Shown here piece by piece: positions 1-33,168 of a DNA stretch of 33,177 nt. The notes under the pieces are model-generated. The model ran no database searches and was not told the origin of the DNA. It was given only the letters and a program-made list of their open reading frames with translations. The stretch is taken from IMG/VR virus record IMGVR_UViG_3300007541_000091, positions 1 to 33,177 of that record; one strand, given 5' to 3'. The position numbers were made by a program, and so were the translations under genes. The stretch's first letter is position 1. Every line of letters begins with the position of its first letter. This stretch comes from a virus.

Positions 1-669
1 GAGCGTAGCAGCGTCCACAGGGCCTTCCGTGACGACCACCCTCTCTTGGGACCAATCGAACGGATAGAGGATCTCAGAGGCTCTCACGGCGCTGTGATTG
101 AGATACTTCGGAGACATGGATGGTAGGAAGGACCGACCCTGGAAGTAGAAGATATGATTGTCTGCATAGAAGGGGATCAGAATCCTTCCTGCATAACGAC
201 CTTCGACAGATGCGAACCAAGGCTTGTTTTCATCAAATGCAATCCGATCTAGCTTGCGATCGAATATAACATCTCCAATGTATTTGAATGTCTCAGGAGC
301 ATCTACGAAGTGATGAAGCTCAAGACACTTAAACTCTTCCTTGAACTCGTCAATTGTATAGAAGATCTTCTGTGCAGGTTCAAGCGGGGTCTCCTCCTCG
401 TGAATGCTCTTGATGCTATCGAAGATGACATTCGCTCGCGCACGCTCGTATGTGCAACCTTCGACGGATGCGACAAGCTGAATGAAGTTTCCCCGCTTGC
501 CAGACTTGAAGCATTGCCAAAGCCCAGTGTCAGTGTTGACCGACATGTGCATTTTATAGTCTGGCGCGAAGATGGAATTGATAGTTACCTCTCTACCACC
601 TGAGACATACTTTAGGTTAGGCTCGAAGTTTTTCTTCAAAAATTCTATAATTAGATTGGAAGAAATCAT
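1..669 (-). CDS. DNA primase, DnaG/gp61-like (partial, 3' end outside window)
   Basis: The minus strand is open from an ATG at 669 to the window edge (223 codons, C-terminal part missing). Residues about 30-65 align without gaps to the zinc-binding CHC2 domain of bacterial primases, and the last visible residues contain a TOPRIM signature, E-G-P-V-D-A, at residues 215-220. A primase makes RNA primers on the lagging strand at the replication fork. The domain looks degenerate: of the four expected zinc ligands only Cys53 remains, the others being Ser32, Ala35 and Ser56. The start is forced by an in-frame TAG three codons upstream, and AGGAAC lies just ahead of the ATG inside the neighbouring divergent gene. 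Fusion to a helicase in the missing part cannot be excluded. The family call is firm; whether it still binds zinc is doubtful. Confidence 0.85.
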   Translation of the reverse strand, partial: MISSNLIIEFLKKNFEPNLKYVSGGREVTINSIFAPDYKMHMSVNTDTGLWQCFKSGKRGNFIQLVASVEGCTYERARANVIFDSIKSIHEEETPLEPAQKIFYTIDEFKEEFKCLELHHFVDAPETFKYIGDVIFDRKLDRIAFDENKPWFASVEGRYAGRILIPFYADNHIFYFQGRSFLPSMSPKYLNHSAVRASEILYPFDWSQERVVVTEGPVDAATL

Positions 670-1446
670 ATGACGTTCCTATCAACAATCTCAAATAGCA
701 AAAGTGACATTATAGATCAATGTCTTCTGAAGTTCCATTATAGATATAATGAGAAGCTCAAAGGCAAGAGCGCAAATGAAGAACCCTTGAACTACGGTAG
801 CTACATTCACAAGATTTTTGAAGATGGTGTGAAATACACCAAAGTCGAAGATTTGCATCGGCTGTCTAATATGCTGATGGAGGAGTATAATGTCACACCC
901 AAGAGGAAGAAGGATACCGACAAGTGTATCAACAACTTCCTCAGATTCAATAGCAATCTCAAGGGGGAGACAGTCTCTTGTGAGCTTCATAGCAAGATCG
1001 AACTGGCCGAGGGGATACAGTATGAGTTCGTTATTGACCGTATCGTTAAGGGGCCAGAGGGTGGCTACCTGATCATAGACTACAAGACCTCAAAACGAGA
1101 GAAGACCAAGGTAGAACTTTTTAATGATAACCAGCTACGTGGTTACGCTTACGCGGTTAACAAGCTGTATGACGTTCCGTTTAGCAAAATTACGTGCGCT
1201 CATTACTATCCGCTGACTAACAATCTGGTAACTGTCAGATACTCATCATCACAGATATTCGAGTGGAAGAAGCGACAAACAAACAAAGTCTGGAGAATCC
1301 GCAAGATGAAGAAGACTGAATTTGTTCCGATGGAAAATGAGTTCTGTAACTGGTGTGAATATAAGAATGGGTATTGCCCCAAATTCAATGATCAACACAC
1401 AATCATTCACTGCATCAACGAGGAGAAACAGGCTAAAAAGAAATAA
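670..1446 (+). CDS. Cas4/RecB-like PD-(D/E)XK exonuclease with Fe-S cluster cysteines
   Basis: This 258-residue protein shows the hallmarks of the Cas4/AddB-like nuclease family: Cys18 near the N-terminus; a G-x3-H-x3-E motif with His47; a metal-binding core made of Asp123 (VIDR), Asp137 and Lys139 (IIDYKTSK), with Gln155 and Tyr159 following (QLRGYAY); and a C-terminal cysteine set Cys226, Cys229, Cys236 that with Cys18 would form a 4Fe-4S staple. Such enzymes degrade or resect DNA ends, so a role in phage recombination or replication is likely. An in-frame TAG six codons upstream fixes the start, and GGAAGAA gives a good ribosome binding site located inside the divergent primase gene. It is not a CRISPR gene here: no array or cas1/cas2 is present. 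The family call is firm; the physiological role is inferred. Confidence 0.88.
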   Translation: MTFLSTISNSKSDIIDQCLLKFHYRYNEKLKGKSANEEPLNYGSYIHKIFEDGVKYTKVEDLHRLSNMLMEEYNVTPKRKKDTDKCINNFLRFNSNLKGETVSCELHSKIELAEGIQYEFVIDRIVKGPEGGYLIIDYKTSKREKTKVELFNDNQLRGYAYAVNKLYDVPFSKITCAHYYPLTNNLVTVRYSSSQIFEWKKRQTNKVWRIRKMKKTEFVPMENEFCNWCEYKNGYCPKFNDQHTIIHCINEEKQAKKK

Positions 1447-2299: not shown

Positions 2300-3886
2300 A
2301 TGGCTAGTCCTATTGAAGATAAATTAGATCAACTTATTGACGCAGTAAATGATCTAGCTGATACCCTTAAAACGGACAACAGTTCTAGTGGAAGTCCTTC
2401 TACTAACTTTGATAAAGTTATTGATGGGATGGGAAAACTCTCAAATCAGCTACAGTCTATGGGAAGAAAGTTCAATAGTTTCATGGAGCCTTTAGCTAGT
2501 TTTGAGAAATCTATGTTGAGAATTAACATGGATGTTCCTCAAAGTCTTGATAATGTTGTTAAATCAACTCTACCCTTATCAACTAGATTGCAAGCTACAC
2601 AAGCCTTAACAATCGCTGGGCTTGAAAAGAATACACAGACTCTAGGAGAGACAGTAGCTAGATCAGAAACCTTAGGAGAGAACATAACTCAGTTATCAGC
2701 AGGATTTAGACAGATACAACTGTCATTAGGTCTTAATGCGTCTCAGATAGGTAGGTTAGGCGTTGATTTAGAAGAAACATCAATGAGGTATAAGACCTCA
2801 ACCACAGAGTTAGTAACTGCCTTAAGTCAATTAGGAAATTCACTGGCTGTGTTAGGCCAGTCGGGTGCTTTTAGGTCGGCTGGAGCGGTATCAGAAGCCG
2901 TAGCAACGACCCAGAGGTTCGCTCCAGGACTGATGCAAGACTTCATCAACGGACTAATTGGAGGAGGCACTGATCAACTTGGGATGAACCTTATGCGAGG
3001 CTTAGAGCCTCTAGCAGCAAGATTACTTAACGACCAAGTTAGAGATCCTCAAGAATTGTTTAATGCCATCACCACAATGGTTACTAATATCGAGGACTAC
3101 TTCGGACCAGTAACGGGTGAAAATTTTAGAGTTATATCTGATATACTTCAACAGCAGTTTGGGCTATCTTTTGAGCAATTAAACTCACTAAAAGCGATGG
3201 CAGAGCAAGCACGAAACGTAACACCAGAGCAAAAAGCTTTACAAGATAGAATGGACGCCGTTAATCGCTCATTAACCAACTTACTACCAAGAATTCAAGA
3301 ACCTCTAATAAAGATTGCCGAAAGAATATTAAGATTTATTGACAACCATTCAGATTATTATAATATGTTTGTTAATGTTTTAGCTGCATCAACCTTTGCC
3401 ACTATGATTAGAGTAGGGTTGCAAGGTATCGCATCGGCGTTAACCGTAGCGGGTCTAGGAAAAGGATTAAATGCAATCCCTGTTATTGGAGGAGCCTTAG
3501 CTTTTGGGGCTTCTTTGTTTGCAGGATCTATGGTCGATAGTCTACTAGAACCTTCCAAAAAGACTGCTGAACAAACGGGTAAAACCGCAGAAGAAATTGC
3601 AGCATTAAATAAACGAGATGAAGAGAGATTTAACCTTGAAAAAGGAAGCAGACCAGATACAGCTAGACAATTAAATGAAATTACAACAGCTTCTATAGGA
3701 AGAATTTTAGCTCTGTCTCAAGATGCTTCTATGTTAGATAATCCTTTAGAGCAAAGAAAACTAACAATACGTCTAGTGGAAGAGATGGAAAAAACTAATC
3801 TCTACTTAAAAGATTTTGAGGTTGACAGAAGAGCAACACCAAGACCAGTGCCACAAGGCACACCAGTAATTGGAGGAGGTAACTAA
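2300..3886 (+). CDS. Tail tape measure protein
   Basis: At 528 residues it is close in length to T4 gp29 (about 590). The N-terminal 150 residues are helical and polar with regular leucine spacing. The middle is Gln/Leu-rich helix, and residues about 355-415 form the hydrophobic, Gly/Ala-rich segment typical of tape measure proteins (for example IPVIGGALAFGASLFAG). The C-terminus is Pro/Gly-rich and flexible. Such proteins set tail length inside the tube and are ejected into the host, where the hydrophobic part may interact with the inner membrane. The next genes encode the tube-baseplate junction and wedge proteins, which fits. GAGGAG six bases before the ATG gives a strong ribosome binding site. 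Assignment rests on size, composition, the hydrophobic segment and position rather than on a catalytic motif. Confidence 0.72.
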   Translation: MASPIEDKLDQLIDAVNDLADTLKTDNSSSGSPSTNFDKVIDGMGKLSNQLQSMGRKFNSFMEPLASFEKSMLRINMDVPQSLDNVVKSTLPLSTRLQATQALTIAGLEKNTQTLGETVARSETLGENITQLSAGFRQIQLSLGLNASQIGRLGVDLEETSMRYKTSTTELVTALSQLGNSLAVLGQSGAFRSAGAVSEAVATTQRFAPGLMQDFINGLIGGGTDQLGMNLMRGLEPLAARLLNDQVRDPQELFNAITTMVTNIEDYFGPVTGENFRVISDILQQQFGLSFEQLNSLKAMAEQARNVTPEQKALQDRMDAVNRSLTNLLPRIQEPLIKIAERILRFIDNHSDYYNMFVNVLAASTFATMIRVGLQGIASALTVAGLGKGLNAIPVIGGALAFGASLFAGSMVDSLLEPSKKTAEQTGKTAEEIAALNKRDEERFNLEKGSRPDTARQLNEITTASIGRILALSQDASMLDNPLEQRKLTIRLVEEMEKTNLYLKDFEVDRRATPRPVPQGTPVIGGGN

Positions 3887-3887
3887 T

Positions 3888-4904
3888 ATGGCTAGTCCTA
3901 GCAGTAAACTCGGAGACCGCCAGTTCGAAGAAAGAGCTTTTTTAGAGTTTTTCTTCTATCAAGAGCCTTTTAGTTTTCTACGTATACCCTCTATTGATGT
4001 ATATCCTGAATTTCAAAAAGTAAAAGTTCCTATATTTGAAAATCCAACAATAAGTGAATCAAAATCAGCTAGATTATCAAGATATAAACCTATAGGTAGA
4101 AATGGAGATTTGTATTCTTTCTTAGGATCAGATTCTAGACAAATAACTTTAAGTTTTAATATGACTCTACCTCACATACTTGATCATGCCCAACTAACTA
4201 CAGAAGTTTATAAAAAGAAAGGATATTTTGATACACTATTTAATGGAAGAGAAATAGATGACGCTGAAAAAACTAAATTTGAAGAAGGAGTTAAATCTCA
4301 ATTTTATCCTACGTTAAGCGAAACTGACTTACTAAAATCAATAAAAGCTTATGAAGAGAAAATGATTTCTGAATTAGAAAAAAATCCTCTTGGATTCGGA
4401 GGTATAACACAAGCAATTCTTAATTTTACAAATTTATTTGGCATTAATGATTTAGACGCAGCAAGGTCTAATAGATTAGAGGGAAGACTTAAAGTAACAA
4501 AGGTAAAAGCTTTATATTATTTTTGGACTAATATCCTAAGGACTTCTACTTTAGGTGGTCCTAATGGGATGCCTCCCCCTATAATTAGATTAACCTTTGG
4601 CCCTCTTTTTCAAAGAGTTCCATTTATTGCAAGTAAATATAGTATGTCTATTGATGAACAATCAGGATATGATTTACTTACTCTCTTACCTAGAAGGATT
4701 AAGTTTAGTTTAAATTTAGAAGAAATAAGAATGGGAAACTTTTCAAAATATGCTCCGATAGACTCCGGTGGCGGAGGCTATGAAGTGGTGATGGAATCAG
4801 AAAACCCAGCAGACTGGAGCGCGGTATTAATTTATGGCACAACAGATCCAAGACTTGGACCCATTGGAGAAGATTTAGATGAGAGTGTAGAGGGTGCAAC
4901 ATGA
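3888..4904 (+). CDS. Baseplate / tail-tube junction protein (gp48/gp54-like)
   Basis: A 338-residue protein. The first part has a beta-rich domain with RQITLSFNMTLPHI near residues 77-90. The second part contains the pattern P-P-I-I-R-L-T-F-G-P-L-F followed by a strand ending in a LNLEE motif, typical of tail-tube initiator and LysM-associated tail proteins that connect the tube to the baseplate. In T4, gp48 and gp54 do this job at 320-364 residues. I prefer the ATG at 3888 over the in-frame TTG at 3870, because GGAGGAGG at 3872-3879 is then a ribosome binding site at correct spacing and the gene does not overlap its neighbour. Its first 13 bases are identical to those of the preceding gene. 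It overlaps the next gene by four bases (ATGA). Exact equivalence to gp48 or gp54 is not established. Confidence 0.6.
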   Translation: MASPSSKLGDRQFEERAFLEFFFYQEPFSFLRIPSIDVYPEFQKVKVPIFENPTISESKSARLSRYKPIGRNGDLYSFLGSDSRQITLSFNMTLPHILDHAQLTTEVYKKKGYFDTLFNGREIDDAEKTKFEEGVKSQFYPTLSETDLLKSIKAYEEKMISELEKNPLGFGGITQAILNFTNLFGINDLDAARSNRLEGRLKVTKVKALYYFWTNILRTSTLGGPNGMPPPIIRLTFGPLFQRVPFIASKYSMSIDEQSGYDLLTLLPRRIKFSLNLEEIRMGNFSKYAPIDSGGGGYEVVMESENPADWSAVLIYGTTDPRLGPIGEDLDESVEGAT

Positions 4905-5176
4905 GTCATTATGTTAATGGTTATTCAGATTACACTCATAGAGGAGTGGTTCTTAGAAGCAGTGTAGGCAACACTGAAGCCGACGACTACATAGCACAGT
5001 TAGAATTATCTAATTATAGATCTGGGTTTGTGCCGTCTGAGTATCACAATAGACCTGATCTGATATCTACTGTTTTTTATAGAAGTCCTTATGACATTTG
5101 GAGACTTTGTTTAATTTCAAATAAGTTTGATGTATTTGAAGACTTTAGAGTAGGTTCAAGAATTGCAATAGAATAA
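4901..5176 (+). CDS. 53: Baseplate wedge protein, gp53/LysM-like
   Basis: A 91-residue protein whose second half (from about residue 50) reads as a LysM-like fold: RPDLISTVFYRSPYDIW, then an LCLISNKFD strand and a final G-x-R-I-A-I segment. This is the layout seen in T4 gp53 and in the small X-type tail proteins of Mu/P2-like phages, where a tandem Trp/Tyr pattern precedes a G-x-x-L/I ending. It is shorter than T4 gp53 (196 residues), so it is a reduced version holding mainly the LysM-like core. In T4, gp53 locks neighbouring wedges together around the hub, and the position just before hub and spike genes agrees. Translation is probably coupled to the preceding gene through the ATGA overlap; GAGGG lies upstream. 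Confidence 0.65.
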   Translation: MSHYVNGYSDYTHRGVVLRSSVGNTEADDYIAQLELSNYRSGFVPSEYHNRPDLISTVFYRSPYDIWRLCLISNKFDVFEDFRVGSRIAIE

Positions 5177-5177
5177 A

Positions 5178-7970
5178 ATGACTCCTATTACTCTAACCCC
5201 TAAAGTTATTTTCACAAATGATCTTTTCATTGTCTCTGCATTCGAAGAGTCGAGAGTATTTGGAGATTTTGATAAAATTGCTACTAAAACAGCATCTGAA
5301 AGAAATAGTATCTATTTATCAACAACAAATGACAATATCTTAAGCTTAGATTTTAAACTAATAGGAGCTACAACCGATACAAAAGGTCCTAATATAACTT
5401 TAGATATTTTAGATCCTACCGATCAATTTGAAACCTTAATATTCTCTAGAAGGATCTCTAAAATCCCAGTAAACTCTCATTTTTACTTAGCGTTTGGGAC
5501 AGATGCAGAATTTGTTAATTGGTCAAATATTTTAAAAGTTACTTTAGTTCACGCTGAGTTATTTAATGAATTTGATCAAGCAAAAACAATAAGACTTCAT
5601 TTATTTGCTGCTGTTAGACTTGATAGTTTAAATATTGATGTATTTAATGGATATACAAAAGATCTTAAAGAGTTTGATGATTCTCTTCAAATTATTATAC
5701 CATCAAAAAAATTAAGAAGTTATAATTTAGAAGAATTGATTAGCCAAAGAGATGCAAGAAAAAAAGCCATAACTGATCTTGCTCAAAAACAAGATCTTAA
5801 GGGTAAAGCAAAAGATGTGTCTATACTACTTGGTAAGATAAAATATCAAAAAGATTATATAAATGAAATTAAGAAACTTATTGAATTTTATGAGAGCAAA
5901 GTTCAAGAACTTCTTCAAGAGGCAGATGATATTAGGAAGAGATCACAAGGTCTCCCAAGCGTAGCTTTACAACAAAGAATATATCCTGAACTTGCTCGGA
6001 TCGGTAAAGAAATTGATACTATTAATCAATCGAAGGCTTCTTCACAGACTCAGCTAAACGAACAAACTCAAAAACTATCTAATCTTCAAACTCAATTAGA
6101 AAATACAAAACCTGATCCTTTAAATCCACTAGATTCTTCATATGAAGAATTCTACGAAGAGGCTCTTGCATTAATAAATAAGGTCACGAGAGATCCTTCA
6201 TTAGCAATAAATATTTATAATTTTCCTGAATATGAAAAAGAATTATTAAGAGTATTTAAAGGTTACAGTTCTTTTGATGTTTGTTTTAAAGAGGTTATTA
6301 ATAAATTATTAAATGCCTTATATTCAGACGAGGTAACTACCCTCTTCTTAATACAAGATACTGAGAAAATTTTCTACGATAATTCAAAAACTGAATTATT
6401 AGTTCTAAGTCTTAGAGAAGCTTTAAAACAGACTAGGGATTCCGTATTCTACCAGAATAGAGATAAAAATATCTATATCCCAGAGATTGATGTAACTGCT
6501 CCTACATATACAACTATTACTAAATTTTCAGATGATAATTTAAAAAATTATAAAAATTATCTTACTTCATCTGTAAAGCCTTTATTACCAAAGTATTTTG
6601 AGATTAACATAGTAGAGGAGGTATCCAATGAAGAAAAATTAATCCGATCTTCGGCAGGAATAAAAGGACTTAACGAGGAGCCGATTCGTGACCCTCGATC
6701 TCCTTTCGGTTCTACTCCTCGGCCTGATACTGTTCTTTATCAAGAAATATACGAAGGTGTAACTAATCAGGAACTTAGAATATCTATAAACATTCCTAGA
6801 AGAGACGGAGAAACGGACGATTCGTTTAAAGTAAAAATAACTGATTTTTTCCTTCAGCTAGAGAGAGGTTTAAGTATAGTAGATAAGGATGGTTTCCAAG
6901 ATAACCTAATTTTAATTGCAGAAAGTGATACAACAATCATAAATAATTTTTATGATTTCTTAGACCAAACAGACATAGGAAAACAATTAATTAGAGAATT
7001 TAAGATAAGAAAAAATAAGCCTCTAGTAATATTAGGACAGTATACTGTAGTAAGAGCTTTACTTTATGGCGAGCAATATTTAAATACAAAAACTAGCATT
7101 GTAAATACTATTACAAGAGATTATTTTAGTAAATTAGTAAAACCTAAATTAAAAAATAAATCTTTTAATATGTATGGAGAACAAAATAATCTTTTGAGTA
7201 ATTTAGAAAAACTATTACAGTCAAATAGTATTAAAACTCAAGAATTTATAAGTAATGTTAAAAATATTACTGATGATTTACTTATATTTAAATATAATGT
7301 TGAAAATCCTAATATTTTAAGCATAAAAGTAGATGATTATAAAGCTTATACTAAGTATTTATTACTTACTAATAATGATCCTACAAATCCAAGAGAAGCT
7401 TCTGGGCTTGATTTCTCCGGTGAAGAAAGTGTTGGTAATCTCGTTAGAGAGCAATTAAAAAGATCACTAGAATTTCCAATACAAGATAAGATAGATAATT
7501 TTATAGACTATTTATTAGATAATACTGATTTTAAGCAAACTAGCTTCTACTCTGGTTTACTTATTGAAACTATAAAACAAATAAATGCCGTATCTACTAA
7601 AACACTTCCTCTAGCAAAAGATTACCAAGAACTTATAACGAAAGCGTATAATCTATATGACAAAAGCGGAGATTATCTTAAATTTGCATTTGCATTCTCT
7701 AGAGATGCTTCCTTACAGTATGAGCAAATGTATAGAGGCTTGCAAGTTGCTAGATTCCGAGTAACAATAAAAACGCTTCCATTTTTCTTCGTTTCTAACT
7801 ACGGATATTTTAGAAAAAATTGTCTATTATTAGCTAAAAGAGTTAATCTGATAAATACAAAATCAAATCTAGACAATATAGTAACTGGTGGATACGAGAT
7901 TATTGGAATTAAACATCGGATAACTAGTAATTCAGCAGAAAGTGAATTTATTCTACAAAGATTAAAGTGA
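5178..7970 (+). CDS. Baseplate hub protein (gp27/gpD-like), enlarged, with coiled-coil insert
   Basis: This 930-residue protein ends (about 845-930) with the signature of tail hub proteins: a barrel strand RVTIKTLPFF, a segment mentioning asparagine-rich turns, then GGYEIIGIKHRI and a last strand ESEFILQR. The N-terminal 180 residues are beta-rich. Residues about 187-311 form a long charged coiled coil (Lys/Glu/Gln heptads), and the middle is Asn/Lys-rich helix. T4 gp27 has 391 residues, so more than half of this protein is extra. The next gene encodes the OB-fold spike, the usual partner of the hub, which supports the call. The gene is among the most AT-rich here, apart from a GC-richer patch near 6640-6730 encoding a Pro/Arg linker. 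The start codon has only a poor ribosome binding site. Confidence 0.68.
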   Translation: MTPITLTPKVIFTNDLFIVSAFEESRVFGDFDKIATKTASERNSIYLSTTNDNILSLDFKLIGATTDTKGPNITLDILDPTDQFETLIFSRRISKIPVNSHFYLAFGTDAEFVNWSNILKVTLVHAELFNEFDQAKTIRLHLFAAVRLDSLNIDVFNGYTKDLKEFDDSLQIIIPSKKLRSYNLEELISQRDARKKAITDLAQKQDLKGKAKDVSILLGKIKYQKDYINEIKKLIEFYESKVQELLQEADDIRKRSQGLPSVALQQRIYPELARIGKEIDTINQSKASSQTQLNEQTQKLSNLQTQLENTKPDPLNPLDSSYEEFYEEALALINKVTRDPSLAINIYNFPEYEKELLRVFKGYSSFDVCFKEVINKLLNALYSDEVTTLFLIQDTEKIFYDNSKTELLVLSLREALKQTRDSVFYQNRDKNIYIPEIDVTAPTYTTITKFSDDNLKNYKNYLTSSVKPLLPKYFEINIVEEVSNEEKLIRSSAGIKGLNEEPIRDPRSPFGSTPRPDTVLYQEIYEGVTNQELRISINIPRRDGETDDSFKVKITDFFLQLERGLSIVDKDGFQDNLILIAESDTTIINNFYDFLDQTDIGKQLIREFKIRKNKPLVILGQYTVVRALLYGEQYLNTKTSIVNTITRDYFSKLVKPKLKNKSFNMYGEQNNLLSNLEKLLQSNSIKTQEFISNVKNITDDLLIFKYNVENPNILSIKVDDYKAYTKYLLLTNNDPTNPREASGLDFSGEESVGNLVREQLKRSLEFPIQDKIDNFIDYLLDNTDFKQTSFYSGLLIETIKQINAVSTKTLPLAKDYQELITKAYNLYDKSGDYLKFAFAFSRDASLQYEQMYRGLQVARFRVTIKTLPFFFVSNYGYFRKNCLLLAKRVNLINTKSNLDNIVTGGYEIIGIKHRITSNSAESEFILQRLK

Positions 7971-28485: not shown

Positions 28486-28827
28486 ATGTCAAACTCAAAT
28501 GAAGTTAAGATGTTCCTAGAAGGCTGCGATTGGGAAAGCCTTGGCCTTTCACCAAAGAAAGTTGTTTCTGAATCAGTCGAAGACTACCACCAGCAAGTTA
28601 ATGAGTCGGATGATTTAGAAGCTGGTTTCTACGATGTCGATGGAGAGCTATTCTTTGTCAGCGAAAATCAAGAAGTATTTGATGTCTTCACTGACGAGGA
28701 AGAGCAGGTATTTGTTTACCACGATGACTACGGTTTACACCAAGTTTTTGAAGGTGAAGAATCCCTGATGTTCGAAGAAGTTGATACTGATGGCTTTGAA
28801 GTCCTTGAAGAAGAATTTGAGGGCTGA
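28486..28827 (+). CDS. Small acidic protein, candidate prohead core / internal protein
   Basis: A 113-residue, strongly acidic protein: about 35 Asp/Glu, only three Lys and no Arg. The N-terminal 27 residues are mixed and carry MFLE at 9-12, a plausible cleavage site (Glu12-Gly13) for a T4 gp21-type protease, though position P3 is Phe instead of Leu/Ile. The rest alternates acidic and aromatic residues in a strand-like pattern (GELFFVSENQEVFDVF). In T4 a small acidic prohead core protein, gp67, precedes the protease and scaffold genes, so this could be a functional analogue. I see no sequence similarity to prove it. A strong AGAGGA site and a candidate late promoter precede it, making it the first gene of the head block. 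Confidence 0.6.
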   Translation: MSNSNEVKMFLEGCDWESLGLSPKKVVSESVEDYHQQVNESDDLEAGFYDVDGELFFVSENQEVFDVFTDEEEQVFVYHDDYGLHQVFEGEESLMFEEVDTDGFEVLEEEFEG

Positions 28828-28829
28828 AT

Positions 28830-29249
28830 ATGAATCATTCTTACCCAAGCATAAGTGTCTCAAAGTTTTTTGAAGACATGCTAAACGAGGGTAAAGTTAG
28901 ACCAGAGGCAAGTCCTATGACTGCCTCTGATCCTTCTATGCCTGATCTCAGAGAAATTCCTGATGTTGATATCAACGATTTATTTGGTGCTCCGAAAGCT
29001 CCTAAGAAAGTTGTTGCTGAAGCTAAGGAATCATCAAAAGACCTAAAACAAGAAATGCTTGAACTCATGGTTGAGTTCAAGCAAGTTGTTCAAAAGGCTA
29101 ACAAGCTATTCTCGGAAATGACAACTGTTGGGAGCCTGGGAATGCATTTAGGTAATCCTGATAATAAATCTAGAGACTGCTCCAAGAAAGAAGAAGCTAA
29201 GAAAGGCTACAAGAAACCGATGAAAATGCTCAAGAGGAGACAAAAATGA
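28830..29249 (+). CDS. Small head-block protein, candidate protease-processed core protein
   Basis: A 139-residue protein in the head block. The N-terminus ends a short amphipathic helix with MLNE at 17-20, which fits the L-x-E site of the T4 prohead protease family (cleavage after Glu20 before Gly21). The centre is a charged helix (KQEMLELMVEFKQVVQKANK), and the C-terminal 35 residues are strongly Lys/Arg-rich, ending in MKMLKRRQK, suitable for binding packaged DNA or acidic scaffold. It starts two bases after the acidic gene, with GAGGG upstream, and overlaps the next gene by four bases (ATGA). I do not recognise a named family. Context and the cleavage-like site make an internal head or prohead core role likely. 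Confidence 0.58.
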   Translation: MNHSYPSISVSKFFEDMLNEGKVRPEASPMTASDPSMPDLREIPDVDINDLFGAPKAPKKVVAEAKESSKDLKQEMLELMVEFKQVVQKANKLFSEMTTVGSLGMHLGNPDNKSRDCSKKEEAKKGYKKPMKMLKRRQK

Positions 29250-29980
29250 GATACTTAAAATATGTTAGAGTAGATGAGCGAACTGATGTAAGAACAGATA
29301 GAACTGACGCAGCCCACGAAGATTATTTAAAGCTTAAAGCTGATGCAGAAGCTGGAGTTGAGGGGGCAGCTAGAAAGGCCCGCATAGCAAGGCTTAAGAC
29401 TAAGGGTCAAGGTTACAAAGATGAGATCGCAAGAGGGGCAGTCCCAGACTCAAAGATATCTCGCAAAAAGGCTCTAACAAAAGCCAGGAAGTTTAGAAAC
29501 CTAGCGGCTAGAATAGAAAGTCCTCCACAACGGGAAGATGCCGGTGTTATCCCTTTAACTCTTCCAATGATTGCTGAAACCAACAAGAAACTCCGTGATG
29601 ATCGAGACAGAGATGCACTAACCCAGATCTACAGAAGCAATTATCAGGGTGAGGTTCCGAGTCCCCCGCCGAGGGAGCCGATGCCGCCCGGTCCTCCTCC
29701 GAAAAAGGGGAAAGATGGTCCTGCTGCGACGTATCTCAGATCTAGAAGGGATTCGAGGCAATCTGGGCGAAGTAAAGCCAGACAAATTGCGATTGCTAGA
29801 AGCCAAGGAAATCCAACGGGTGCGCCAGGAACACAGCCAAGTGTTACGGGCCAACTCCAGGCAGAACCCCGCAAGAAAATCAAAGCGGGGACATGGAAGG
29901 GAAACAGATACCCCCATGACCTCGGAAGAACAGTCCCTAAAGAGGAAGCAGATAAATGGGAACGTGAAGACAGAAGTTGA
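29246..29980 (+). CDS. Basic, Pro-rich disordered head-block protein
   Basis: A 244-residue, Lys/Arg-rich protein with little expected structure. The N-terminus has an Arg-Thr-Asp repeat (RTDVRTDRTD at 12-21), then charged helical segments with many Lys/Arg (KARIARLKTKGQGYKDEI), a Pro-rich stretch near residues 137-155 (PSPPPREPMPPGPPPKKG) encoded by a GC-rich patch, and a basic tail (ends near KWEREDRS). It may bind DNA or acidic core protein in the head. A possible cleavage site, VDE at 9-11, fits only loosely. It is preceded by AGGAG and overlaps the previous gene. The GC-rich patch leaves other frames open, but this frame has the ribosome binding site and the coupling overlap. Function is unknown. 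Confidence 0.5.
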   Translation: MRYLKYVRVDERTDVRTDRTDAAHEDYLKLKADAEAGVEGAARKARIARLKTKGQGYKDEIARGAVPDSKISRKKALTKARKFRNLAARIESPPQREDAGVIPLTLPMIAETNKKLRDDRDRDALTQIYRSNYQGEVPSPPPREPMPPGPPPKKGKDGPAATYLRSRRDSRQSGRSKARQIAIARSQGNPTGAPGTQPSVTGQLQAEPRKKIKAGTWKGNRYPHDLGRTVPKEEADKWEREDRS

Positions 29981-29981
29981 T

Positions 29982-29989
29982 TATACATA
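29982..29989 (+). promoter_or_regulatory. TATACATA box before the DUF6321-like gene
   Basis: The octamer TATACATA, one mismatch from the T4 late box, lies in the 23-base gap after the stop at 29980. The same octamer precedes the tail block, and the shared word AGCCTTAA follows in both places. The ATG at 30004 has no clear ribosome binding site, so a promoter here could give a very short leader. Confidence 0.35.
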
Positions 29990-30003
29990 AGCCTTAATAC
30001 ATC

Positions 30004-30450
30004 ATGAAAACTTTAACAAGAGTCATCTTAGAAAAGAAAGGTCGCTGCTGGAAAGGTTACAAGCCAACTCCAGGCAAGAAGCCTTACTCACCCGGCTCTT
30101 GTATGAAAGAGGCTAGAATAGCTACTTTACAAGAAGCTAAACTAATAAAGTCTAAGAAAAAGAAGAAGGGCGGTAAGTCCCCTGCTTGGCAACGCAAAGC
30201 AGGGAAAAACCCTTCAGGCGGTTTAAACGCTAAGGGTGTCGCATCATACCGTGCAGCAAATCCAGGCTCAAAGCTGAAGACTGCTGTCACAACCAAACCA
30301 TCTAAATTGAAGAAGGGCTCAAAGGCAGCCAAGCGTCGTAAGTCTTTCTGTGCTCGTATGGGCGGAATGAAGAAGAAGCTTACAGGTGCTAAGACCAAGA
30401 AGAACCCTAATTCAAGAATTAACAAATCATTAAGGAAGTGGAACTGCTGA
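30004..30450 (+). CDS. Lys/Cys-rich internal head protein (DUF6321-like) with capsid-targeting N-terminus
   Basis: A 148-residue, strongly basic protein. Residues 1-10, MKTLTRVILE, closely mirror the capsid-targeting peptide of T4 internal proteins (MKT-x4-I/V-x-E, cleaved by gp21 after Glu10). Residues 14-33 hold a C-W-x-G-Y...P-Y-S-x-G-S-C module (Cys15, Cys33), and the C-terminal 35 residues (Cys116 to Cys148) hold FCARMGGMKKKLTGAKT and a final LRKWNC. This C-terminal block recalls a family I know as DUF6321, present in many phages and thought to be head-associated; the number should be checked. Lysine runs (KKKKKGG) point to DNA binding. After cleavage the mature protein could be packaged and ejected with the DNA. 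It sits two genes before the protease. The ribosome binding site is unclear. Confidence 0.7.
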   Translation: MKTLTRVILEKKGRCWKGYKPTPGKKPYSPGSCMKEARIATLQEAKLIKSKKKKKGGKSPAWQRKAGKNPSGGLNAKGVASYRAANPGSKLKTAVTTKPSKLKKGSKAAKRRKSFCARMGGMKKKLTGAKTKKNPNSRINKSLRKWNC

Positions 30451-30866
30451 TGAGTTTCTTATCTCTTATTAACGAGTTTTCTAGCAAAAATACTGAAGTC
30501 TTTAGAACTAAAGAAGGGACTAAAGGAAAAAACAGAACAGGAGTCCTTAAAGCTCAAAAATCTAAAGTTAAGGTTTATGCAACAATTATGGACGCTCTTA
30601 AAAATGGGTCCATTGGAGATGTTTTTTCGACCGACGGATCAGATAGACTTTATGTAATTACTAAACAAAAATGGGGTAAGGATCAAGATCAAGTTGTCGC
30701 TGGTAGAGTAGCTAAAGGCTTCACTCCTGGCTCTTCAACTCCTTCATCAGACTTCAAATCAATTATAAAGCATTCGGTTAGAACAAAGGCTAGATATGGT
30801 CAGCCTCTCTCAAAAGAGTTGAAACAAAAATATGCTAGTCGAATTAAAGCTACAAAAGGAACATAA
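30450..30866 (+). CDS. Small head-block protein with protease-type N-terminal site
   Basis: A 138-residue protein. I use ATG 30450, which overlaps the previous stop by one base and follows GGAAG, rather than the in-frame GTG at 30438. The N-terminus MSFLSLINEFSS contains LINE at 6-9, matching the hydrophobic-x-Glu cleavage pattern (after Glu9). The rest is basic with Lys/Arg (for example KAQKSKVKVYATIM), a small beta segment (DRLYVITKQKWG) and a basic C-terminal helix (KELKQKYASRIKATKG). No family recognised. It lies directly before the protease gene (one base apart), consistent with a co-packaged internal protein, but a different role cannot be ruled out. Confidence 0.55.
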   Translation: MSFLSLINEFSSKNTEVFRTKEGTKGKNRTGVLKAQKSKVKVYATIMDALKNGSIGDVFSTDGSDRLYVITKQKWGKDQDQVVAGRVAKGFTPGSSTPSSDFKSIIKHSVRTKARYGQPLSKELKQKYASRIKATKGT

Positions 30867-30867
30867 T

Positions 30868-31854
30868 ATGCTATTAAAAGAAGTAAGAGTTTTAACCGAC
30901 TTACAGGTTATATCAGAATCTCGTGATACAGGAATAATGTGCATTCGAGGAACATTCCAACGCGCAGAGGAGGAAAACCACAACAAGCGAGTATATCCTA
31001 AAGCAGTATTAGAAGGTTGTGTCAAGTCCCTGCAAGAAAAGCTAAACGGCAGAGAGCTTGTTGGAGAACTCGACCACCCTGCTGATGGAGTTGTAAAACT
31101 TCAGAATGCTTCTCATTTAGTCACCAAGCTTGAATGGAAAGGCAATGACCTTATTGGAGAAGCTGAAATTCTTCCAACCCCAGCAGGTCAGATCGCAAAG
31201 AGTCTTATCAATGCAGGTGTGAAGATTGGCATCTCAAGCCGTGGTATGGGAACTCTTAGTGAATCATCAGAAGGCACAAAGATTGTTAACGCTGACTACA
31301 AAATGATTACCTTCGACCTTGTTGCTGATCCGTCAACCAAAGGTGCATATCCATCACTCGCAGAATCAAGACAACACGCTCTAGATTTTGTTGAGAACGT
31401 AATCAAGCCTGCAATTTCTGAAAAAGCTTTTGTCGCTCGTTTGAAGAAAACCCTAGATGAATCTAGAAAAACTTCTCAGTTATCAGAAGGTCTGAGGAGA
31501 TTAGAAAGACAACTACTGAGCAAGAAAATGTCTCCAAAAGCTAAAGAGCAAGCTAAGAAAAAGCAAAAACAGAAAGAAAAGGTTAGATTTGATAGTGAAG
31601 AACCTAGGACGCAATCAGTGGGCGAAAGTAGAGCACAGGCCAAGATGAAGCTTGTAAAAGCTATCCAAGAAATGTGCGGTCCTAAGCATGGCAGAAGGAG
31701 ACTAAAAAAGGTTGTGGAGAATAAGATTAAACCAAAGACTGGTTTATACCGTCCTGGTGTGAAATCTCCTGTGGTGCCAATAAAGGCTATTAGGGGAGCA
31801 GATAAAAAATTTCATGATTCTCGCGCAGTGAGTAATCAAAGAGGAGAAAGCTAA
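30868..31854 (+). CDS. 21: Prohead protease, gp21-like
   Basis: A 328-residue protein; ATG 30868 is preferred to the in-frame TTG at 30832 because AAAGGA precedes it at normal spacing. The protease domain covers about residues 20-165, with the conserved EEEN-x-N-x-R-x-Y-P motif (34-44), GELDHP with His70, a GISSRGMGT active-site loop (Ser123/124), and FDLVADPST (149-157). T4 gp21 and herpesvirus assemblin use such a Ser/His arrangement to cut prohead proteins and mature the head. The C-terminal 160 residues are Lys/Gln/Arg-rich and absent from the minimal fold. Sites resembling gp21 targets occur at ISE17-SR, LAE166-SR, LDE198-SR and near Glu253, suggesting self-cleavage. It precedes a basic protein and the scaffold. 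T4 order (21-22) is preserved with one gene inserted. Confidence 0.9.
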   Translation: MLLKEVRVLTDLQVISESRDTGIMCIRGTFQRAEEENHNKRVYPKAVLEGCVKSLQEKLNGRELVGELDHPADGVVKLQNASHLVTKLEWKGNDLIGEAEILPTPAGQIAKSLINAGVKIGISSRGMGTLSESSEGTKIVNADYKMITFDLVADPSTKGAYPSLAESRQHALDFVENVIKPAISEKAFVARLKKTLDESRKTSQLSEGLRRLERQLLSKKMSPKAKEQAKKKQKQKEKVRFDSEEPRTQSVGESRAQAKMKLVKAIQEMCGPKHGRRRLKKVVENKIKPKTGLYRPGVKSPVVPIKAIRGADKKFHDSRAVSNQRGES

Positions 31855-31856
31855 TT

Positions 31857-32459
31857 ATGAGACCACTAACACTAGAAATTTTAATGGAGCAAGGTTGGCT
31901 TGGTAGGGCTCTTATGGGAGCCGGAAGTCTTGCTAATAGAATTGGTAGCGCCCGTAAAGGTCTTGCTACTAGAATAGGTAACGCTCGAAAAAGTTTTTCT
32001 GATCTTGGGAAACAACCACCTACTAATAGCTGGTGGAGAAAAAAATCAGGACCAAGACAACTACAATTTAATTTTGATCCACCAGCAAAGCCAACAAACT
32101 CAAATCAAGCAGCAGCAAGACCAAGACAACTAGAATTTGATTTTAATCGAGCAGCAGCAAAACCAGGATCACAAGACCCCAAAGCGAAAACTGCTGCTAG
32201 AGTTCCATCAGCAGCAAGCACAGGATCACAAGATTATAGAGCACAAACTCCTGGTAGGATTCCGTCAAAGGTTCAAAGTAATCCTGTAGTATCAACACCA
32301 TCTACACCGAAGACCCCAAATCTTAAATCAAGAATGGCTAGAGCTAAAGCAAGAACGTCTATGGCAAGAATGCCTACGTCTACTCGTAAGGGGAATCCAA
32401 ATGATACTCGTAAGGGTAATCCAGATGATTTTGGTTATGGTGTTCCTGGGTTGGATTAG
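31857..32459 (+). CDS. Repeat-built basic head-block protein with protease-type N-terminal site
   Basis: A 200-residue, Arg/Lys/Pro-rich protein inserted between protease and scaffold genes, preceded by AGGAGA. The first residues, MRPLTLEILMEQG, contain ILME at 8-11, a hydrophobic-x-Glu site. The body is made of neighbouring duplicated units: RIGSARK and RIGNARK; PRQLQFNFD and PRQLEFDFN (DNA units 69 bases apart); two GSQD units with a following RVPS/RIPS, 57 bases apart; two MARAK/MARMP-like stretches; and TRKGNPND with TRKGNPDD, 24 bases apart. This looks like a protein that grew by local tandem duplications. It is probably disordered and could bind DNA or scaffold inside the head. It overlaps nothing and has no T4 equivalent that I know. 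Function is unknown. Confidence 0.6.
   Translation: MRPLTLEILMEQGWLGRALMGAGSLANRIGSARKGLATRIGNARKSFSDLGKQPPTNSWWRKKSGPRQLQFNFDPPAKPTNSNQAAARPRQLEFDFNRAAAKPGSQDPKAKTAARVPSAASTGSQDYRAQTPGRIPSKVQSNPVVSTPSTPKTPNLKSRMARAKARTSMARMPTSTRKGNPNDTRKGNPDDFGYGVPGLD
32052..32149. repeat. Tandem near-identical DNA units in the repeat-built gene
   Basis: The unit beginning CCAAGACAACTA at 32052 recurs at 32121 with only a few base changes over about 30 bases, in the same reading frame 69 bases apart. It encodes PRQLxFxF twice. Further tandem units follow: CAGGATCACAAGA at 32164 and 32221, and ACTCGTAAGG at 32382 and 32406. Confidence 0.7.
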
Positions 32460-32467
32460 GATGATTA

Positions 32468-32494
32468 AAATAAAATTTATTTAGTTATTTTTTT
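32468..32494. terminator. AT-rich inverted repeat with T-run before the scaffold gene
   Basis: AAATAAA (32468-32474) and TTTATTT (32476-32482) are reverse complements with one base between, followed by seven T (32488-32494). The stem is all A-T and the loop is too short to form as drawn, so any termination would be weak. Confidence 0.25.
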
Positions 32495-32524
32495 ATATAA
32501 TAAGTAGATACTATTTAGAGAGGA
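32494..32524 (+). promoter_or_regulatory. Candidate promoter and leader of the scaffold gene
   Basis: TATATAAT (32494-32501) is followed by AGATACTATTTAG and an AGAGAGG ribosome binding site. The leader from 32503 to the start codon closely matches the one before the first head-block gene (28458-28488). Confidence 0.35.
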
Positions 32525-32529
32525 ATACT

Positions 32530-33168
32530 ATGAGCAAGAGAAAGAATAAGATGCAATCAATTGCAGAAATTCTTCCTGAAAATCTTTCAGAAGAAACTGT
32601 CAATAAGGTTGCTGAGTTAGTCAGTGAGGCTATTGAAGAAGGAGTTGCTCGACAAGTAGAAACGTTAAGCACGAAATTCCACGCTCTTCTTCGTCTAAAG
32701 ATTGACGAAATGAAGGAGCACGCTCGTGCAGAGTTAGAAGCCGAAGATCCTGAGTTCCGTAATCATGAAATTATGGAATCAATCAAAGGTATGCTTGCTC
32801 TAGAGGTTGCCCCTCAAAACGTTGATTCAATTGTCGAAACTCAGTTGAACGAAGCCGCAGAAGCAGTTGAAGATTCAAAGGCTGTTGAGGCTGAACTCGA
32901 CAACCTGCTATCTGAAAACGAAACATTAAAGAGAACTCTGAAGTTAGTGGAGTCTAAGCTTCACAACATCAATAAAGAAAATAAGAAGTTGCAGATTCAG
33001 CTTGAACACAAGAAAGCTGACCTGCAAGAGTCCAGACTTCAGGGTAAGGCAAAGCTCGAAACTCGTTCAATTGATGAGTCTCGTGAAGAGCCAAAAGCAA
33101 GATGGAATGATAGTTTAGTTCCAGGAGTTAATCTTGAGGAGCTAAGACGATTAGCAAACATAAATTGA
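32530..33168 (+). CDS. 22: Prohead core scaffold protein, gp22-like
   Basis: A 212-residue, highly charged, mostly helical protein. The N-terminal part contains the phage scaffold motif AEILPENLSEETVNKVAEL (12-30) followed by a helical block with LRLKIDEMKEHARAELEAE (54-72) and a Met-Ile/Leu block. Residues 110-170 form a continuous coiled coil rich in Glu, Lys and Leu. The scaffold guides shell assembly and is then degraded by the prohead protease. Candidate L/I-x-E sites occur at IAE13, LSE21, LQE167-SR, IDE183-SR and LEE204, two followed by Ser-Arg exactly as in the protease itself. T4 gp22 is somewhat longer (about 269 residues). Its position after the protease, and the expected capsid gene next, match T4. 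The ribosome binding site AGAGAGG is strong. Confidence 0.88.
   Translation: MSKRKNKMQSIAEILPENLSEETVNKVAELVSEAIEEGVARQVETLSTKFHALLRLKIDEMKEHARAELEAEDPEFRNHEIMESIKGMLALEVAPQNVDSIVETQLNEAAEAVEDSKAVEAELDNLLSENETLKRTLKLVESKLHNINKENKKLQIQLEHKKADLQESRLQGKAKLETRSIDESREEPKARWNDSLVPGVNLEELRRLANIN

Follow-up and report, generated by a model that had tools for sequence, protein, structure and literature searches.

Which of the small genes around a phage head-protease gene encode proteins that are loaded into the head and cut there? We take up this question for eight genes (g1 to g8, positions 28486-33168; Table 1) of the IMG/VR virus record IMGVR_UViG_3300007541_000091, whose 33,177 bp we call the window and to whose whole length all position numbers refer. 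The window holds mostly T4-superfamily tail and baseplate genes, such as that for a baseplate wedge protein (phrog_219), and the small-gene block lies 3' of these, around a Peptidase_S77 gene. An earlier note on this DNA had observed that seven genes of the block begin with a short peptide ending in a hydrophobic-x-Glu triplet, and had proposed that they encode co-packaged internal proteins matured by the protease. Our overall account, to which we give a probability of roughly 0.78, is that the block belongs to an uncultured T4-superfamily phage and is its prohead-core cluster, with tagged, S77-processed proteins. Its substrates are non-homologous and most likely include two tagged internal proteins, g4 and g5; because their tag is conserved in many related viruses, we consider it probable that these two enter the phage head and are trimmed in it, much as happens in T4. 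What can be read directly from the data is the gene order, the protease family, the conservation of the site in g4, g5, g6 and the capsid protein, and the lineage-wide co-occurrence of g5 with the protease.

The close relatives of the window are the IMG/VR contigs L002, L003 and L004 (labels of this form denote IMG/VR or phage comparison loci). All three share its gene order, and most head genes are 56-92% identical. A gp23-type capsid gene follows directly after g8 in L003 and L004, its product being about one third identical to the best-matching named phages; in this comparison of capsid proteins with named phages we found no close named member of the lineage. The protease that the earlier note had recognized among the seven genes is borne out: g6 matches PF03420 (E 2.4e-27, 96 bits against a cut-off of 27) and phrog_207 (E 7e-53), is 36% identical to T4 gp21 over 153 residues and has both the GELxHP and the SSRGxGxL motif, which appear in its catalytic region as GELDHP and SSRGMGTL and align with T4 gp21. 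With S77, a scaffold-like gene and, in the relatives, gp23 downstream, the proposed internal-protein cluster does sit in a T4-type prohead-core neighbourhood; by analogy with T4, not every member of it need be an internal or ejected protein.

We predict that g6 cleaves after Glu at L/I-x-E, and such sites are conserved as a gp21-type rule would require. Near the N-terminus of the protease itself, [IL]-x-E stands at residues 16-18 in almost every unique sequence (V in a few), named phages included (IAE16 in HTVC008M, LTE16 in P-SSM7), and further candidate sites of g6 lie just past the catalytic domain (ISE185, LDE198 and LSE207). At the capsid site that aligns with T4 gp23 LTE65, all 35 lineage sequences have [LIMV]-x-E, the first residue being L in 21, M in 5, V in 5 and I in 4. 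Because of this capsid site, V and M are probably tolerated at P3 in this lineage, so that V-type sites become credible.

How much does the triplet count itself tell us? All seven triplets lie where the earlier note had placed them (FLE12, LNE20, VDE11, ILE10, INE9, ISE17 and LME11), and the eighth gene has one too (IAE13). If the first 20 residues are drawn randomly from each protein's own composition, strict triplets in at least five of seven genes are expected with P = 8e-5. However, a strict triplet within the first 20 residues also occurs in 4 of the 16 other window genes (Fisher p = 0.05), and [IL]-x-E ending at residues 6-12 is found in about 9% of open reading frames (ORFs), in phages with and without S77 alike. 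Because so many others match, the count proves little: the triplets of the five-of-seven pattern are real, but taken alone their number is only suggestive. Bare I/L-x-E counting, being non-specific, was dropped as evidence, and conservation must decide.

A more demanding standard comes from the T4 internal protein (IP) IPIII, in whose leader residues 4 and 7 serve targeting and residues 8 and 10 permit processing (PMC9026906). We write this fuller T4 rule, which applies near the N-terminus, as hydrophobic residues at -6 and -3, I or L at -2 and E at 0. Only 2 of the 26 window ORFs satisfy it, and they are precisely the adjacent genes g4 (30004) and g5 (30450). The earlier note had described the g4 leader as matching T4 almost residue by residue; all rule positions indeed fit, but the wording is too strong, with about 5/10 residues identical to the IPIII leader.

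For g5, the second of these genes, a profile built from four sequences finds relatives at 70 loci in IMG/VR and, where the locus is long enough, g5 stands directly 5' of the S77 gene, usually about 20 bp away. PF03420 is present in 48 of the 50 g5 records searched, both exceptions being contigs that end just after g5. Among 31 non-redundant members the N-terminus follows the pattern M-x-h-h-x-h-[IL]-x-E, with E in 30/31 (one D), I/L/V at -2 in 31/31 and hydrophobic residues at -6 and -3 in 29/31. The entropy is 0.21 bits at E, 1.06 at -2, 1.64 at -6 and 1.47 at -3, and 2.69 bits each at -1 and -4, which are free. Shuffled N-termini yield the site in 8.9 of 31 proteins on average and in 17/31 at most, against 30/31 observed. 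In these alignments the g5 N-terminus follows the rule described for the IPIII leader at both its targeting and its processing positions; family-wide conservation of the rule positions and co-occurrence with S77, the marks of a capsid-targeting-type peptide, are both found here. The linker after the tag varies in length among members. In an AlphaFold2 model residues 1-33 have a predicted local distance difference test score below 50, leaving the tag disordered, and a folded core spans residues ~41-136. The sole I/L-x-E of the window g5 is the N-terminal one, and the rest is a compact, conserved basic domain. Neither the sequence (Pfam, PHROG, PDB families) nor the model (PDB, BFVD) gave a significant match, and g5 is an undescribed family. 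As an observation beside this, locus L178 has four tandem paralogues (3484-3843, 3840-4160, 4729-5073 and 5070-5396) flanking g5 beside the protease; they begin MINENFISRVIQxLVEMRLDE, each has I/L-x-E at residues 16 and 21, and they are absent from the window.

For g4, the earlier note's assignment of one gene to a DUF6321-like family is confirmed (PF19846, 68.3 bits against a gathering score of 28.5, E 9.4e-19). Its head MKTLTRVILE is followed by RCWKGYKPTPGKKPYSPGSC, and the heads of relatives read MKSFKNFIAE-RCW, MKSFKTYITE-RCW and MKLLTRLNE-KSRCW. The full tag occurs in 16 of 76 complete IMG/VR DUF6321 proteins versus 4 of 375 ORFs of S77-negative phages; MKTFKQFVTE and MLSFSEFIVE are further examples. 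The three contigs of at least 58 kb with a tagged or near-tagged DUF6321 head (L062, L066 and L076, the head of the last, MKKFKSFIVKEE, being one residue off the T4 rule) all encode S77, gp23 and gp20, which are found in 0/10 contigs of that size without such a head; by hand calculation this has a chance of 1 in 286. The T4 markers PF07230 and PF11649 failed to classify the smaller DUF6321 contigs. DUF6321 is present in 464 named phage records, corresponds to T4-GC119 in named cyanophages and is annotated 'structural protein' in S-P4 and RB11-B. The DUF6321 structure model is poor (predicted template-modelling score 0.34) and had no significant PDB fold match. In cyanophage S-RIM14 (L110:3264-3734) we also see MKKKTYEEFVSE, close to the T4 leader, in an internal position between an N-terminal SKKQQRFFGMVRAAQKG segment and DUF6321.

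These families bear on one alternative, that short I/L-x-E triplets arise by chance in Glu-rich head proteins. The 9% background and the p = 0.05 contrast within the window speak for it; conservation of both rule positions across the g5, g6, capsid and DUF6321 families speaks against it. As a general account we regard chance as very improbable, and for g4, g5 and g6 it is already unlikely, but it probably covers FLE12, VDE11 and perhaps LME11.

The same signal recurs in a further setting. Of 21 distinct contexts of a segment that we call RCW...GSC, 18 have [ILV]-x-E within a few residues before it (mean after shuffling 3.5, maximum 9); several of these contexts are related to one another, so that the test does not count independent events. 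Signal and segment occur together both after N-terminal tags and within the C-terminal extensions of S77 proteases, for example as RFADVIRE-RCW and LFGDIIKE-RCW (L122, L125 and L163); one of the three exceptions, L038, comes from an S77-negative contig. From these contexts we read RCW...GSC as a mobile segment, and one signal that turns up in places without homology is not easily put down to a common N-terminal structure. We also observe the segment in a small MSAFRNYLSEGVVK protein (regions L175:10069 and L140:2971) and in the protease extensions of L122, L125, L163 and L168, C-terminally in each case, which suggests exchange between the two.

Could the conserved N-terminal peptides instead be uncut docking helices that bind core or capsid, with the Glu kept for binding? 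The conserved residues at -6, -3 and -2 are spaced as in an amphipathic helix, g5 residues 3-9 come out as a low-confidence helix in the AlphaFold2 model, and the targeting residues of T4 (4 and 7) are separable from its processing residues (8 and 10) (PMC9026906). Yet Glu is the most invariant position while the residue before it is free, the triplet stands also at the gp23 maturation site, and its presence before RCW inside protease extensions is left unexplained by N-terminal docking. We consider this explanation improbable, if less so than chance.

What of the remaining genes? The check proposed in the earlier note, a search of relatives for conservation of L/I-x-E, finds the site kept in g4, g5, g6 and the capsid protein; it fails for FLE12 and VDE11 and, beyond close relatives, for LNE20. 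In g1 the conserved site is VSE29, at whose aligned position 21 positional counterparts have LTE, LNE, IDE, ISE, LKE and the like; FLE12, which the earlier note had listed as a weaker site, is not kept in them and was rejected in favour of VSE29. A profile comparison of g1 with its acidic counterpart in the wider group gave no significant homology (hhalign probability 0.2%), and the equivalence of the two therefore rests on position, charge and N-terminal alignment. In the wider group, the gene that immediately precedes g5 is a homologue of g2 (hhalign 98.3%, E 1.5e-14). The g2 triplet LNE20 (LNE, VNE, VNE and INE in close relatives) was rejected as a lineage-wide site. The fast-diverging g3 is 18-35% identical to its relatives, and the only g3 site that recurs is the internal PLTLPMIAE111, not the VDE11 of the earlier note. 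The L004 counterpart of g3 contains MKTLRKVILEAK at an internal ATG (6382) after AAGGA, which reads as nearly the g4 leader on another protein. No homologue of g7 was seen in syntenic loci, and it misses the strict T4 rule by one residue, having Thr at -6. A pattern PLTxxx[IL]xE is common to g3 (PLTLPMIAE), g7 (PLTLEILME) and the L003 protease tail (PLTLPSIME); near the protease its recurrence is confined to the window and the three close relatives, and we do not use it as main evidence. The scaffold-like g8 is 90-92% identical in L003 and L004 and has no detectable similarity to T4 gp22 in a comparison of low power with single-sequence templates.

Table 1. Genes and candidate sites of the block at 28486-33168.
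Feature	Position	Strand	Description
g1	28486..28827	+	acidic, 113 residues, net charge -32; corresponds in position to T4 gp67
g1, FLE12	28513-28521	+	
g1, VSE29	28564-28572	+	
g2	28830..29249	+	139-residue protein
g2, LNE20	28881-28889	+	
g3	29246..29980	+	basic, low-complexity, 244 residues
g3, VDE11	29270-29278	+	
g3, PLTLPMIAE	29552-29578	+	internal, ends at residue 111 (IAE111)
g4	30004..30450	+	DUF6321 protein, net charge +43
g4, MKTLTRVILE	30004-30033	+	tag
g4, RCW...GSC	30043-30102	+	segment
g4, LQE44	30127-30135	+	
g4, DUF6321	30202-30441	+	domain
g5	30450..30866	+	basic 138-residue protein, folded core ~residues 41-136; numbered from ATG at 30450 (ORF list begins at GTG 30438)
g5, MSFLSLINE	30450-30476	+	tag
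g6	30868..31854	+	prohead protease, Peptidase_S77 (T4 gp21 family), basic C-terminal extension; numbered from ATG at 30868 (ORF list begins at 30832)
g6, ISE17	30910-30918	+	
g7	31857..32459	+	basic 200-residue protein
g7, MRPLTLEILME11	31857-31889	+	
g8	32530..33168	+	scaffold-like coiled coil, T4 gp22 position; IAE13
Putative S77 cleavage-site peptides of the lineage			MSFLSLINEFSS, MKTLTRVILEKKG, KVVSESVED

The strongest competitor to our account arises from these genes: g1, g2 and g5 might all be structural prohead-core proteins, functional counterparts of gp67 and gp68, that do not stay in the head but are cut up and lost from it, with no ejected effector among them and with the DUF6321 protein alone, if any, as an internal protein. 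In T4, the head loses most of gp67 and gp68 after they have been fragmented, while the IPs and Alt remain and are ejected (PMC9026906, PMC7411985). The position of g5 directly 5' of the protease across the lineage is that of T4 gene 68, its near-universality is core-like, and g1 is very acidic like gp67 (-32 versus -25). A single N-terminal I/L-x-E followed by a compact, conserved basic domain, however, gives g5 a closer likeness to a T4 internal protein than to a core protein that is shredded. We take this alternative seriously and place it not far short of even odds. By number and placement of sites (N-terminal tag, basic body), g4 and g5 resemble internal proteins, and by the same comparison g1 resembles gp67.

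Besides the background of bare triplets, several results weigh against a cluster of tagged, S77-processed proteins. The g5 site deviates to LQD in L178 and VRE in L134, the g2 site of the wider family is LKD, LKS or a shifted LSE13, and the g3 N-terminal triplet varies among relatives. Most named-cyanophage DUF6321 proteins examined have no N-terminal tag, though such phages have S77. Homology of g5 and g2 to T4 gp68, and of g8 to gp22, was dropped as none was detected (for gp68, hhalign probability below 1% with single-sequence templates of low power, gp67 not included). Genome-wide, T4-rule heads number 16/669 in S77-positive versus 4/375 in S77-negative phages, which is not significant (p = 0.10); a narrower MK-F-type head gives 7/296 versus 0/375 (p = 0.003), a value that is optimistic because this form was defined after the DUF6321 heads had been seen.

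Under the reading as a prohead-core cluster with tagged proteins, the acidic core protein g1, the second core protein g2, the basic core or internal protein g5 and the scaffold-like g8 would form or join the core, g3, g4 and g7 would be accessory proteins, and g6 would act as the gp21-type protease. Docking of proteins onto the assembling core would be the task of the N-terminal tags, which are short and amphipathic and stand out most clearly in g4 and g5. Once the prohead has closed, the protease would cleave itself, the core and capsid proteins and the tagged proteins, in each case after the Glu of [L/I/M/V]-x-E. The tags and the fragments of the core would exit, and the basic mature parts of g4 and g5 would stay with the DNA. 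Conceivably mature g4 and g5 enter the host; domain searches found no known effector domain in g3, g4, g5 or g7.

Similar heads stand on further proteins. In three S77-positive marine T4-like contigs, DUF6267 proteins (L190:6972-8174, L195:2809-4035 and L196:10213-11403) have capsid-targeting-like heads, MLSFKSFLTEQE, MNFTEFLTEGK and MLSFKSFLTEES, with DUF6267 starting at residue 15-23. An 847-residue protein (L195:11362-13905) combines such a head, MRFSDFLQEQ, with a kinase domain (Zeta_toxin/AAA_33) and a start that resembles HIGH-type nucleotidyltransferases, and from its sequence is a candidate packaged enzyme. We suggest, tentatively and with the odds leaning against it, that a transferable tag-and-cut signal, [FYLI]xx[FYVI][ILV]xE, marks gp21-type head payload across aquatic T4-superfamily phages; the modules that bear it, unrelated in other respects, would then be the g5 family, DUF6321, DUF6267, RCW...GSC, the nucleotidyltransferase-kinase fusion and the protease C-terminus, a list that we hold just as tentatively. 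If it is true, one could foresee from this signal together with S77 which proteins of uncultured phages are internal and possibly ejected.

Two further observations concern neighbouring genes. L116:6337-7173 encodes a PAAR-motif protein (PF05488, E 2.7e-7), between fibre genes and the acidic gene in relatives; at this position the window has a 64-bp gap and no gene. At window positions 1-1446 a minus-strand primase-like gene lies beside a plus-strand gene with the Cys-rich CNWCEYKNGYC, a motif that, judged by eye from the translation alone, is typical of Cas4/RecB-like nucleases.

How does this cluster compare with known systems? The packaged and ejected proteins of T4 are well studied. In the phages studied here, a tag conserved at both targeting and cleavage positions points to the undescribed g5 family and to DUF6321, a domain of unknown function, as prohead-loaded, and the sequence rule can be tested by mass spectrometry on existing cyanophage or pelagiphage virions as a way of finding more such proteins. 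Our literature search, which left subscription journals mostly outside, found no description of the g5 family, of DUF6321 as tagged cargo or of the RCW signal.

As in T4 gp21, IPI-III and Alt, there is an S77 protease and a leader some 10 residues long whose positions 4 and 7 are hydrophobic, with I at 8 and E at 10. IPII and IPIII have one leader in common (PMC9026906). The window lineage likewise has sites that fit the L/I-x-E cleavage rule and puts a near-identical leader on different proteins (MKTLTRVILE on g4 in the window, MKTLRKVILE on g3 in L004). Unlike in T4, the tagged DUF6321 and g5 families, which match no T4 family here, adjoin the protease gene, M or V seems to be allowed at P3, and the protease has long C-terminal extensions that bear the same signal in some relatives. 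The position of the genes, the small size of their products, the acidic nature of g1, the basic nature of g5 and the gp21-type sites recall gp67 and gp68, although g5 and g2 differ from gp68 in lacking detectable sequence homology. Both gp67 and gp68 are reported to be missing from cyanophages (PMC2984593); g4 shares the C-terminal DUF6321 domain of the cyanophage T4-GC119 proteins, but those are mostly long and untagged whereas g4 is short and tagged. SPN3US and phiKZ too have a Glu-specific head protease that acts on many internal proteins and is processed at its own C-terminus, but it is distant, several SPN3US propeptides are much longer (>100 residues) and the phiKZ motif is S/A-x-E (PMC7411985, PMC9026906). 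As a kind, gp21-processed tagged head proteins are already known from T4; what is new is the lineage, the g5 family, the evidence for DUF6321 as a cargo that is often tagged, and the occurrence of the signal beside RCW segments, some protease tails among them.

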